From: Alkalinema sp. RU_4_3
GTDB lineage: Bacteria; Cyanobacteriota; Cyanobacteriia; Leptolyngbyales; Leptolyngbyaceae
DNA: 47,367 bases
Direction: 5' to 3'
Assembly: GCA_012031975.1 (NCBI GenBank)
Contig: JAAUSA010000011.1
Coordinates: 1 to 47,367 of the forward strand
The translations under genes were made by a program, and so were the position numbers. Of the stretch, positions 12,351 through 25,594 are shown in pieces. Numbering within the stretch: the stretch's first letter is position 1; the number at the start of each line of letters is the position of its first letter. The notes below the pieces were generated by a model. That model did not search any database and was not told where the DNA came from. It was given only the letters and a program-made list of their open reading frames with translations.

Positions 12351-15067
12351 TTAGGCTACAGCCATGATGGGGATTTCAATGCTAAACTCGGTCCCTTGGC
12401 CCGGCTGAGAAGAGCATTGTAGGGTGCCTAGGTGCTTTTCGGTGATGATTTGATAGCTGATGGAAAGGCCAAGGCCCGTTCCTTTGCCGATCGGTTTTGT
12501 GGTGTAGAAGGGATCAAATATTTTGGCTTGCGTCGCTTCAGTCATGCCAATTCCATTATCGGCGATCACAATTCTAACCCGATTCTCATGGCAGCGTTCT
12601 GTCGATAGTCGAATCACACGAGGGGTAGACTCATCTGCCTTGGCTTCCGTATTGGATAAGGCATCGATCGCATTTGCCAACAGATTCATAAAGACCTGAT
12701 TCAACTGGCTTGCATGGCATTCAATCAAAGGTAAATCATCATACTGTTTGACAATCTGAATATCCGACATCAAGGTATCCCCCTTCAGCCGGTGCTGTAA
12801 AATCATCAACGTACTGTCTAACCCCTCATGAATGTCAACTGCTTTCATTTCAGATTCATCCAAGCGAGAGAAATTACGTAGGGACAGGACAATGTTCCGA
12901 ATTCGCTGGGTGCCCATCTCCATAGAAGACAAAACCTTTTTTAGATCCTCAGTAATGAATGCCAAATCCACGTCTTCAAGGAGTTTTTGAATCTCCGGAT
13001 CATCTTGACCATAGCGCTCCTGGTAGAGATCGATCAAGCCCAGCAATGCTTGAACATATTCACTGGCATGGGCTAGATTGCCATGGATAAACCCCACTGG
13101 ATTATTAATTTCATGGGCTACCCCAGCGACCAACTGACCTAGGCTAGACATTTTTTCACTTTGGATCAGTTGAGACTGGGTCTCTTGCCGCTCTTGAAGG
13201 GCCACAGCGAGTTGGCTGGACTGCTGTTGCTGTTGGGAGAGCAGATCGGCCTGTTCGAGAGCAATACTGACTTGGGCCGAAACTTGGCGAACGAATTCGA
13301 TTTCAGCTTCTTTCCATTCATAGGGGCGATCACAGTGGTGCGTACAAAACAGTCCCCATAAGGTATCGCCTTTCAAAATCGGTGCCACCAAGGAGGCCTT
13401 AATGCAAAATTGCTCCAAAACCACTCGATAGCAATCCTCTAAACCCGCTTTACTAATATCACTGAGGGCTGATACCCGGCCCTGGCGATAGAACTCGGCA
13501 TATTGCTCACCAAAACAATGGTCATGCACAGGGATCGTCATCGCCGCTGGAAATTCCGGGGCCACATTTTCCGAGACGAAGACACCATCATTGAAATTTG
13601 ACGCTGGATCAAAATAGTAGATTCCGACCCGATCGGCCTTCAGAATTCGCCGCACCTCCTGGGTGACTGTCGTCATGATTTGCTCTAGGTCCAAGGACTG
13701 ACGCATCTTCGTCACGACTTCGAACAGCATGCGTTGCTGATCCGTAGCTTGCAGGAGCTGGAGCGTCCGCTCTTGCACCTGGATTTCAAGCTGACCGTTG
13801 AGTTGATGCACATGCCGATAGATCTCAGACTGCTCAATGGCCGTGGTAAATTGTTCGGCGATCGCCGCCGCCAGTGTTTGCTCATCGCTCAGCCAAGGCT
13901 GAATTTGTCCAATGTGAGATTGACGCCAGATTTCGAAGGACTGACGCGGAAAGGTCTGACGCTGATCGCTGTCACAATGCCCAGCCCATAACGTTTCGCA
14001 GGTGAATGCATCCCGAAACAAGCTCAAATAGCCAATGATCTGCTGATGGGTGACCAGCGGCACAATTAAAAGGCCACGAATCGAGGTGGGCCGGAAAGCG
14101 GCCTGGATTGTGCGCAAATCACTGACTTGGTAGATATCGTCGATCGCCCACAGATCATAGCTCCCGGCAAAATGCGTTTGAATGCCATAGCATTGCTCAA
14201 AATGCTCCAGGTGTAAGCCCGCCAGATCGGGCTGTTCTCCAACGGTATAAACCTGGGAGTCACAGTGGGACCTAAGGCCATACTGCAGTTGTAGGACCTC
14301 GGGTCGGACCCATAGGCGACCACTATAGCCTGCAGGGCTTGGACCGTCGATTCGAGGGCGGCCTGGAGATCGATCGCTGTTAAGGAATTGAGTTGGGCGG
14401 CAATTTTGTTGAGGATGGCTTTGCGCTCAACCTTTGCCTGGGCATACTGAAGATGGGTAGACTGGGCGATCGCCACCGAGATCTGATCCACTACTAATTG
14501 AATGCCCCTCAATTGCTGCAATGGAATTTCGAGGGGCGTGGCATGGTGCGCCACCAAGAGACCCCATAGTTGATCATGGTGAAAAATCGGAGCAGTCACG
14601 GAGGCTTTAATCCCCATGGCGGTCAAGTATTCCTGGTGGCAAGGATCCAAAGGCCGAAAAGCCCAATCCTCTGCAATGACTTCGCCTGTTTCTGGATCGC
14701 ATAACCGACTTTGGCCAATCAGGCCTGAATCCACATTGACCACATTGCGGACTTTCGCTTCAATAAACAACTGACGGGCATGGGGCGGAATATCATCCGC
14801 TGGAAAGTTTAATCCATTCAGTGGGGGCAATCGGCGATCCTCCCCCAGGGATTCTGCGATCACCTGACCACTGGTGTCGGCATGAAATTTGTAGATCTTC
14901 AGGCGATCGACCCCCAAAAATTGCTGAACCTCTGTCACCGTAGCATTCAAGATTTCCTGGAGTTCTAGCGATCGACGAATGCGATTCGTAATGCGCCTCA
15001 GCAAATTCTCTTGATCTAAACGAGAAGTTTGGCCGGATGTGGTAGAGGGCACAGTGACAGGATTCAT
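12351..15067 (-). CDS. multi-GAF cyanobacteriochrome-type sensor histidine kinase (one frameshift)
   Basis: Two frames (15067 to about 14320, and about 14320 to 12351) join into one protein of about 905 aa; the break falls inside GAF2. GAF1 (about residues 25-210) has the phytochrome-like RLKIYKFH and DPCHQEYLTAMG segments, with a Cys-His that could hold bilin and a further Cys 20 residues before it. GAF2 follows (SHCDSQVYTVGEQPD, YDLWAIDDIYQV). GAF3 has DHCFGE, a DXCF motif (codons 13512-13523), and a second conserved Cys in LEDCYRVVLEQF (codon 13431-13433), the dual-cysteine cyanobacteriochrome arrangement. The kinase core has VAGVAHEINNP (phospho-His), NLLANAIDAL and GTGLGLS. No receiver is fused. 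The expected role is light sensing with phosphotransfer to an unlinked regulator. Confidence 0.85.
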
Positions 15068-15434: not shown

Positions 15435-15755
15435 ATGAATCCTACGCTTCAAACTATCCTTGGCAATCTTAAGCAGGAGCTGACTAGCCTGTATGGCGAT
15501 CGCTTATGTCAGCTTACCCTGTTCGGTTCTCAAGCTCGTGGGGATGCTGAATCAGGGTCGGATATTGATGTGTTGGTGGTGTTGCGATCGACGGTTAGTC
15601 CCGGTGAAGAGATTAAACGGACGGGGAAGCTGGTGGCTGATATTTGTTTGCAATATGAGGTGGTGATTAGTTGTCTGTTTATGGGTGAGGCGCAGTACCA
15701 AACTCGTAATGGTTCTTTGTTACGCAATATCCGCAAAGAGGGAGTCCTGCTATGA
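15435..15755 (+). CDS. MNT-type nucleotidyltransferase, antitoxin of a HEPN/MNT pair
   Basis: The 106-aa minimal nucleotidyltransferase has the full active-site signature GSQARGDAESGSDIDVLV (G31-S32 with D43 and D45). In HEPN/MNT modules the MNT partner neutralises the HEPN ribonuclease, in characterised systems by adding AMP to it. The gene overlaps the HEPN gene by 4 bp (ATGA), as expected for translational coupling of a toxin-antitoxin pair. The length is normal. It opens the accessory island that runs to about 22 kb. Confidence 0.9.
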   Translation: MNPTLQTILGNLKQELTSLYGDRLCQLTLFGSQARGDAESGSDIDVLVVLRSTVSPGEEIKRTGKLVADICLQYEVVISCLFMGEAQYQTRNGSLLRNIRKEGVLL

Positions 15756-16132
15756 CGGATGAGCAACGGGAGCTTCTCCTCAAAGCCCAACAGAGTTTAG
15801 ATGCGGCAAAACTCCTGCTGAATAACAGCTACTCTGACTATGCGACTTCCCGTGCTTACTATACGATGTTTTATATCGCCGAAGCCTTTCTGGAGGGTGA
15901 GGGTCTTTCATTTTCTAAGCATTCTGCTGTCATTTCGGCGTTTGGCCGGGAGTTTGCGAAGTCGCAGCGGGTGTCGGCTGAGTTTCATCGCTTTTTGATT
16001 GAGGCGCAGGCGTTGCGGACGACTGGGGACTACGGGCAGTTGAATGCTGTGACGATCGAGGAAGCATCTGAGCAAATTGATCGGGCGGAGCAGTTTTTGG
16101 TGGTGGCGGTTCAGGCGATGGGGGAGATATGA
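15752..16132 (+). CDS. HEPN domain protein, toxin partner of MNT
   Basis: The 126-aa all-helical protein matches the HEPN family (pfam05168 type), with SRAYYTMFYIAEAFL in the second helix and a KHSAVISAFGREF segment. HEPN toxins are metal-independent ribonucleases using an R-x(4-6)-H motif. Here R34 is present but the usual His position is Tyr (R-AYYTMF-Y). Activity may therefore be weak, absent or dependent on other residues; the Tyr form is not rare among cyanobacterial relatives. It is translationally coupled to the upstream MNT gene, so the pair is a toxin-antitoxin or abortive-infection module by context. Confidence 0.85.
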   Translation: MTDEQRELLLKAQQSLDAAKLLLNNSYSDYATSRAYYTMFYIAEAFLEGEGLSFSKHSAVISAFGREFAKSQRVSAEFHRFLIEAQALRTTGDYGQLNAVTIEEASEQIDRAEQFLVVAVQAMGEI

Positions 16133-18265: not shown

Positions 18266-20419
18266 TTAGGACGGCTTACCTTCAGTTGGTGGGATAGTAA
18301 TCTCAGGAACTTTACCCTGCCAGCGTTGTCGTTGGATCTCTCCTGATGGACATTGGCGATGGGTTTTGAGACGCTCCAATTCTGCTGTATCCGCCCAAAT
18401 GATCCAATGATGGGGAGCATGGGTTTGTTTTCTAGCCTTCACCCACCCCCGTCGCACCCAATTGTACAGTGTCACCATAGGCATTTCTAAAGCAAGTGCC
18501 AAATCGGTTAACCACCATTCATGCTCGGCTAGAGATTCCCGTTCTAGAGCACCTCGGCGCTTACCCAACCCCAAATCGCGCATCAACTTCTGAACTTCAT
18601 CAGGCTTGAGAGTGGTCAATCGCTTGGGCGGATAGAACCCTTCTGCAATCAAACACTGGGTAATTTCCTGACTACTCAATTGTGCCTGAGCGAGTTGTTC
18701 TAACCGTTGACACAATTGAGGATAGTTACTCAGTTGTGTCCATCGCGCAACTGGACGAATAATTTGGGCTTGTGTCAAAGTTCCACCTATCCACTCTATC
18801 ATGACTTGAACCCGTTCACTCTCGCCTTGAACATCAACCCGAATGCGATGAATCACTTGTCGAACGATCTCTTTGCGTTGAACTGGAGTCGTCGAAGAAG
18901 AATGCCAAAGCGTTGGCAAATCTTCAGCCAGTTGCCGCACCATCTGCTTCTCCGACTCAGAGAGCGATTTCGGTTGTTGATGAGAGAATCTTTTGTATTC
19001 CTCTTGAAGGTGTTGGTAATCTTTGAGTTTCGCTTCCCATTCCTGTGCTAATTGTCGCGCAACCAGACGATTTTCAGGTTCAACTAAACGATAATGACGA
19101 CCTGCTCTCTGGGATTCAAATTCTGCTCTCTCTAATCGTTGCTGCCAGAGCTTATCTAGTTCTCCTCGTTCTTGCTCCAGGTGTGTCTCTGCTTGTAAAG
19201 ATAGCTCTAAAGCAATCGGTTCTAGAGCAGAGAGAACTTGTTGGGAAACGTATTCATCCAAACAGGTCCCTGCCAGATATTGACACAAGCTGCCACCGTA
19301 GTCCGAAGCTGCTCGACAGCAAACATATCGAGGTAAATTCCCTTGATAATATTGCACATTCATGCGACATCCGCACTTTTCACACACCAGTAGCCCGCTG
19401 AGCAATGCGCCTCCTGAACGAGGGTTACCCAGTTCATCGGCTCGGTTCCGGTTGGCTTTGAGTTGGGCTTGATTGTGTTGGTACTGTTCCCAACTGATAT
19501 AGGCAGGATGGTGATCTTGAATCAAAACATACCAGTTTTCTGGGGTCATTACCACTTGTCCAGTGTGGGGTCGCCCAGCTTGTTTGCGGCGTAGATCGGT
19601 TTGTTGGCGACCATAGGCATATGCGCCCGCATAGGCTGGATTTTTCAGCAGGTTTTGCAGCGTCGGACGGTTTGGTCGCCGCCATTCTAGATCGCCTTTG
19701 TGACTGCCTGAGTAATGACGGACCCCGATCTGAATCTGTTGTTTGACCAAGTAGCGCAGCACAGCATTCAGAGTCCCTAACGCCTCAAATTTCCGAAAGA
19801 TTAACTTGACAACCTGTTGGGCTTGCTCATCCGGGTCAAAAATCACCTCTCCTGAAGGGCGACGGACATAGCCAATGGGCACATGGAACCCCAATTCTCC
19901 ACGTTGGGCTTTGTTCCGTTTGCCTTGCACCAGGCGTTGTTTCAAAATGTGCAGTTCTGCCTCACTCATGGTGCCTTTTAAGCCCAACAACAAGCGATCA
20001 TTATATTGGCCAGGATCATAGATCCCATCCAAGTCAGCAATTAAGGTGCCAAACAGGGCACAAATTTCCAACAACTGATGCCAATCTTTGGAACAGCGAG
20101 CCAAACGGGACATTTCGATGCCCAGAATTAAGCCGACGTGGTTCAAGCCCACTTCACTGACTAATCGCTGGAAGCCGATTCGCCCTTCCGCACTACTGCC
20201 TGACTTCCCTAAATCATCATCAATTGTCAACACCCGCTCTTGACTCCAGCCCAACCCGACAGCTCGTTGGGCTAAACCATATTGCAGGCGAGTTGATTCT
20301 TGATGGTCAAGCACTTGTTGCAGAGTGGATTGACGCACGTAGACAATAGCCAGTCGCTCACGATGATGCGGTTGGATTTTCTCGCTTTGCCACAGACCCA
20401 GTTCTTGATTAGGACTCAT
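18266..20419 (-). CDS. large serine recombinase with C-terminal helix-turn-helix
   Basis: The 717-aa site-specific recombinase starts with the resolvase catalytic domain: the nucleophile lies in VYVRQS (S31), with the GKSG and EMSRLARCSKDW motifs after it. Next come the Recombinase domain (VPIGYVRRPSGEVIFDPDE, then RPTLQNLLKNPAYAG), a zinc ribbon (LLVCEKCGCRMN, then YVCCRAASDYG), a long coiled coil (about 410-490) and a C-terminal region. That last region includes a MerR-like helix-turn-helix (LALALEMPMVTLYNWVRRG). Such enzymes cut and rejoin DNA with a 2-bp overlap. The last 11 bases of a 76-aa gene overlap its start. IS4-type transposase fragments flank it on both sides. It appears intact, unlike nearly everything around it. 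Confidence 0.92.
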   Translation of the reverse strand: MSPNQELGLWQSEKIQPHHRERLAIVYVRQSTLQQVLDHQESTRLQYGLAQRAVGLGWSQERVLTIDDDLGKSGSSAEGRIGFQRLVSEVGLNHVGLILGIEMSRLARCSKDWHQLLEICALFGTLIADLDGIYDPGQYNDRLLLGLKGTMSEAELHILKQRLVQGKRNKAQRGELGFHVPIGYVRRPSGEVIFDPDEQAQQVVKLIFRKFEALGTLNAVLRYLVKQQIQIGVRHYSGSHKGDLEWRRPNRPTLQNLLKNPAYAGAYAYGRQQTDLRRKQAGRPHTGQVVMTPENWYVLIQDHHPAYISWEQYQHNQAQLKANRNRADELGNPRSGGALLSGLLVCEKCGCRMNVQYYQGNLPRYVCCRAASDYGGSLCQYLAGTCLDEYVSQQVLSALEPIALELSLQAETHLEQERGELDKLWQQRLERAEFESQRAGRHYRLVEPENRLVARQLAQEWEAKLKDYQHLQEEYKRFSHQQPKSLSESEKQMVRQLAEDLPTLWHSSSTTPVQRKEIVRQVIHRIRVDVQGESERVQVMIEWIGGTLTQAQIIRPVARWTQLSNYPQLCQRLEQLAQAQLSSQEITQCLIAEGFYPPKRLTTLKPDEVQKLMRDLGLGKRRGALERESLAEHEWWLTDLALALEMPMVTLYNWVRRGWVKARKQTHAPHHWIIWADTAELERLKTHRQCPSGEIQRQRWQGKVPEITIPPTEGKPS

Positions 20420-24245: not shown

Positions 24246-25594
<1,349 letters not shown>

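Follow-up and report, generated by a model that had tools for sequence, protein, structure and literature searches.

A probable All2699-like photoreceptor histidine kinase of Alkalinema sp. RU_4_3 that joins a knotless phytochrome to a DXCF-type GAF domain

The photoreceptor gene on the minus strand (15067-12351) of a 47,367-nucleotide stretch of Alkalinema sp. RU_4_3 DNA (contig JAAUSA010000011.1, positions 1 to 47,367, hereafter the window) raises the question of how many bilins one histidine kinase may carry and which colours these may report. As assembled, the window copy has the domain order GAF1-PHY-GAF3-kinase, yet a frame break keeps it from being one protein. The locus probably represents a photoreceptor histidine kinase of the All2699 type, in which a red/far-red knotless phytochrome would be combined with a second, probably blue-sensing bilin GAF of the DXCF type. 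The designation All2699-like is used because both have the same order of knotless phytochrome, bilin-type GAF3 and histidine kinase.

The N-terminal part of the gene has the features of a phytochrome. GAF1 (14468..14965, minus strand) matches PF01590 (E=6.5e-19) and its best matches are the GAF1 of All2699, SyB-Cph1 and Cph2. The best PDB sequence match is 6OZA/6OZB, the All2699 GAF1 (E 2.4e-72), and the fold also matches these entries, with 57-60% identity; 6OZA is the GAF1 of Nostoc All2699 (PMC6696110). The phytochrome-like Cys-His that the first-pass annotation had pointed out is present, as DPCH with the Cys-His pair at 14636-14641 and the cysteine at 14639-14641 (minus strand), and a PADDIP motif is present at 14786-14803 (minus strand). 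When cysteine conservation was scored in 75 full-length relatives together with the window, the GAF1 Cys-His was kept in 74 of the 75 scorable rows. The middle domain, previously counted as GAF2, is instead a PHY domain (13827..14327, minus strand, aligned to the intact relatives), for which PF00360 scores 36.9 bits (cut-off 27) over the part that lies in the second frame. The same frame contains the tongue motifs, namely LWAG (13980-13991) and PRQSFEIW (13926-13949), both on the minus strand. The RIT motif of GAF1 starts at residue 25, and neither a PAS domain nor any other domain was found ahead of GAF1. Because there is no PAS domain, a PHY domain with a tongue follows a phytochrome-type GAF with Cys-His, and GAF1 is closest to that of All2699, GAF1-PHY is, as judged from domains and homology, a knotless phytochrome (Cph2/All2699-type, group II). 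Its PHY domain is the only PF00360 match found in the genome, which is estimated to be 97% complete, and the gene appears to be the sole phytochrome of this genome.

GAF3 (13257..13691, minus strand) is a domain of the DXCF cyanobacteriochrome type. It matches PF01590 with an E value of 1.9e-26, and its AlphaFold model has a mean pLDDT of 92. The best Foldseek matches of the model are bilin GAFs, with the dual sensor kinase 6OAP first and TePixJ at 1.4 Å rmsd. The DHCF motif at 13512-13523 (DXCF Cys at 13515-13517, minus strand) aligns with the DPCF of TePixJ, and the cysteine of EDCY at 13431-13433, followed by a tyrosine at 13428-13430 (together 13428..13433, minus strand), aligns with the ECH cysteine of TePixJ. 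The coordinates given before for both motifs are exact, and the dual-cysteine assignment holds, since both cysteines align with the two chromophore cysteines of TePixJ, which are likewise 28 residues apart. Only the naming has to be reversed: the pair is as described, but by the convention of the field the term canonical belongs to the EDCY cysteine, which had been called the second, and the DXCF cysteine is the second. The significant PF01590 match, the bilin-binding GAFs found by PDB sequence and fold comparison, and the alignment of the cysteines to TePixJ at equal spacing indicate that the pairing is a matter of homology, not of chance. GAF3 also keeps an LxxH-type histidine, and the residue five positions after its canonical cysteine is a leucine; Leu527 of TePixJ, five after the canonical cysteine, is a D-ring tuning site (PMC7504144).

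The tyrosine that takes the place of histidine after the canonical cysteine had been singled out earlier. It is indeed present, but it is not a special feature, as it is common in the relatives: in the 76 rows (75 relatives and the window) histidine follows the canonical cysteine in 50 and tyrosine in 18. Cys-Tyr recurs in the DXCF GAFs L101 and L108 of the same genome, RcaE has Cys-Leu at the aligned position, and NpF2164g5_BV4, for which the printed primer reads Cys-Tyr, binds biliverdin covalently (PMC7504144). Cys-Tyr was therefore rejected as the mark of a dead or special GAF, and, being common and present in a biliverdin-binding domain, the tyrosine is no argument against bilin binding by GAF3.

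The colour of GAF3 is less directly indicated. In DXCF domains the second cysteine attacks C10 of the bilin and blue-shifts the dark state, usually together with PCB-to-PVB isomerisation (PMC11284453), and the photoproducts vary in colour, from teal to orange (PMC6628166). In the GAF3 tree, the sister of the window domain is L153 (99/91), within a group of DHCF domains that adjoins the red/green XRG group with weak support, while TePixJ, the only characterised DXCF domain included, sits elsewhere, also with weak support. Since GAF3 does not group with TePixJ, its photocycle may differ, and the blue or violet versus green assignment proposed at first is best treated as a prediction. The best guess from sequence is a blue-absorbing dark state; the colour of its partner state is not readable in this way.

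The gene ends with a histidine kinase core (12351..13142, minus strand), recognized by a weak PF00512 match (21.7 bits) and a PF02518 match (89 bits), with the phospho-acceptor histidine in GVAHEINNP at 13113-13115 (minus strand) and HATPase_c running to the end. Consistent with bilin attachment, the genome also carries genes for a heme oxygenase and for three ferredoxin-dependent bilin reductases, of which two lie side by side. In the mechanism that we propose, one bilin would be attached to GAF1 at the Cys-His of 14636-14641, and GAF1 together with the tongue-bearing PHY domain would act as a knotless phytochrome, photoconverting between a red- and a far-red-absorbing state. A second bilin would be attached to GAF3 at the EDCY cysteine (13431-13433), and the DHCF cysteine would reversibly attack C10 of this bilin, so that the dark state would absorb blue light and the photoproduct light of longer wavelength. 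The signals from GAF1-PHY and GAF3 would then travel through helical linkers to the one kinase core, so that two colour pairs would be integrated. The earlier suggestion of two bilins in one histidine kinase seems likely by analogy with the homologue All2699 of Nostoc sp. PCC 7120, which binds PCB on GAF1 (638/685 nm) and on GAF3 (645/595 nm) (PMC6696110).

All2699 has, like the window gene, three GAF-like domains, the second PHY-like and the third bilin-type, followed by a histidine kinase. The two differ in that the GAF3 of All2699 is red/orange (645/595 nm), whereas the window GAF3 has a DXCF pair and Cys-Tyr, and in the frame break of the window gene. The blue/green GAF of TePixJ (3VV4, 4GLQ) shares with GAF3 the DXCF and canonical cysteines 28 residues apart and the same fold at an rmsd of 1.4 Å; however, it is placed, with weak support, outside the clade of GAF3 in the GAF tree, has Cys-His where the window has Cys-Tyr, and is part of a chemotaxis-type receptor. 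Cph2 of Synechocystis and SyB-Cph1 (4BWI, 8W26) have the same GAF-PHY arrangement without PAS, with a PADDIP-type GAF and a PHY tongue, but their identity is lower, the output domains of Cph2 differ from those of the window gene, and SyB-Cph1 is without a GAF3 of the window type. Receptors that join a PAS-less phytochrome to a second bilin domain are already known. IflA of Fremyella diplosiphon, attributed to Bussell and Kehoe in 2013, is reportedly a four-colour photoreceptor with red/far-red and blue/green bilin domains in one protein.

Two other uses of the cysteines have to be weighed against the proposed one. An additional cysteine in GAF1 (RLC, 14699..14701, minus strand) had been taken as a possible chromophore ligand, which would make GAF1 itself a two-cysteine domain similar to the insert-Cys type. 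The residue lies in a loop 20 residues ahead of the canonical cysteine, and insert-Cys cyanobacteriochromes likewise use a loop cysteine (PMC6628166). A phytochrome with two such cysteines is also known, FiDCB (9JRY). It falls in or beside the stretch that matches residues 118-130 of SyB-Cph1, which are disordered (PMC11264168). However, a cysteine is found there in just 5 of about 75 rows, GAF1 has no extra insertion relative to the GAF1 of All2699, and the latter is red/far-red with a histidine at the aligned position. The cysteine was rejected as a second ligand of GAF1, being an unconserved loop residue, and a two-cysteine GAF1 is highly improbable. The other alternative is that the DXCF pair of GAF3 goes unused, the domain either binding its bilin without the reversible thioether or binding no bilin. 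Some GAF3 domains of the family have lost one or both cysteines (L127, L156), and in the tree the red/green group is, with weak support, a closer neighbour of the window GAF3 than TePixJ is; against these points stand the retention in GAF3 of both cysteines, the LxxH-type histidine and the pocket fold, and of both cysteines in most members of the DHCF clade. An unused pair is accordingly rather unlikely, and a GAF3 that employs both cysteines is the preferred reading.

The frame break raises a different alternative, namely that the only phytochrome of the genome has recently been inactivated, or that two proteins are made from the locus, one a truncated GAF1 and the other a kinase with GAF3 that is translated from an internal start codon. 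The GAF1 frame corresponds to the ORF 14066-15067 and the rest of the gene is in another frame, open from 14420 to 12351 (minus strand). As the alignment to intact relatives shows, homology in the GAF1 frame stops at 14327 and resumes in the second frame at 14324 (14324..14327, minus strand), confirming the frameshift previously suspected near 14320 and placing it at the start of the PHY domain. The break is present in the assembly, it lies outside any homopolymer run, and a TTG-started ORF (12351-14117) contains GAF3 and the kinase, all of which agree with a genuine break. On the other side, it is the single break in 905 codons, with no further stops or frame losses, and the relatives are intact, with GAF1, PHY, GAF3 and kinase contiguous in one protein: they match at E<=1e-200 in 57 of 390 genomes of the class, a count that includes the genome of the window, and internal stops were found in none. 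Moreover, purA (adenylosuccinate synthetase) on the same contig, about 10 kb from the photoreceptor break, has the same kind of break, being split between two frames (24578-25588 and 24246-24599, minus strand). No second copy of purA, which is normally required for purine synthesis, was found in the genome. A single-copy and normally needed gene split in the same way argues that the contig probably contains indel errors, the purA break among them, and the photoreceptor break is therefore more likely an assembly error than an inactivation. We regard a genuine break as unlikely, although less so than an unused cysteine pair.

Several other features of the window and the genome deserve mention. 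Beside the photoreceptor gene, at 15435-16132 (plus strand), adjacent small genes for a nucleotidyltransferase (PF01909) and a HEPN protein (PF05168) resemble an MNT-HEPN toxin-antitoxin system, and a large serine recombinase with Resolvase, Recombinase and zinc-ribbon domains is encoded at 18266-20419 (minus strand), a possible sign of a nearby mobile element. The same genome has further CF-type GAFs with a canonical cysteine, namely L101 (DHCF, Cys-Tyr), L102 (DHCF, Cys-His), L108 (DPCF, Cys-Tyr) and L106 (AQCF, Cys-His). Another GAF, L105, has Cys-Leu and groups with RcaE (100/99); it is possibly a chromatic-acclimation sensor, in a genome with an adjacent bilin reductase pair that is possibly pebA-pebB. 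Among the relatives, the GAF3 domains of L127 and L156, without both chromophore cysteines, are possibly blind second sensors.

The third domain has a history of its own. Three classes of GAF3 can be distinguished in the tree of the relatives: the XRG class, which groups with AnPixJg2, NpR6012g4 and Slr1393g3 (100/100); the DHCF class of the window, which is not a supported clade; and a third clade (100/100; L030, L157, L158, L161-L163, L165-L170 and L173-L178), mostly xxCF with Cys-His (e.g., SECF...SPCHREF), to which none of the characterised references used here belongs. On the GAF1-PHY tree (73 rows) these classes need 13 changes against the least possible 2, and the strongly supported branches alone force 7 changes for DHCF and 6 for XRG. 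L150 and L156 belong to the same genus, and their sequence identity reaches 80% for GAF1, 74% for PHY and 78% for the kinase, against 45% for GAF3; the GAF3 of L150 is nearest to XRG rows (66%) and that of L156, which has lost both cysteines and may evolve fast, to DHCF rows (54%), and a GAF3 tree constrained to unite the two is rejected (p-AU 0.0006). The window GAF1-PHY is nearest to L155 at a fork that is not firm (98/57), and the XRG-type GAF3 of L155 is 36% identical to that of the window, which is nearest to L153 and L185 (64%). The class changes on the GAF1-PHY tree and the contrast between L150 and L156 make repeated replacement the simplest reading, and it is rather more probable than otherwise that GAF3 is an exchangeable colour cassette, replaced repeatedly from other cyanobacteriochrome lineages while the knotless phytochrome and the kinase stay in place. 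Ancient paralogues that underwent gene conversion could also account for this pattern. That cyanobacteriochrome GAFs are shuffled as modules is a familiar idea, and exchange of GAF3 may already have been described in the literature.

In this receptor kinase, what is apparently the only phytochrome of the genome is coupled to another bilin domain that probably senses blue light. If exchange of GAF3 is true, a common chassis serves natural receptors that differ in their colour pairs, the window having the DXCF version and its nearest GAF1-PHY relative the red/green type. The family provides natural pairs that differ mainly in GAF3, such as L150 and L156, with which one can study directly how two colours are integrated by a single kinase, and whether signalling survives the swap of a colour domain, a matter of relevance to optogenetic design.
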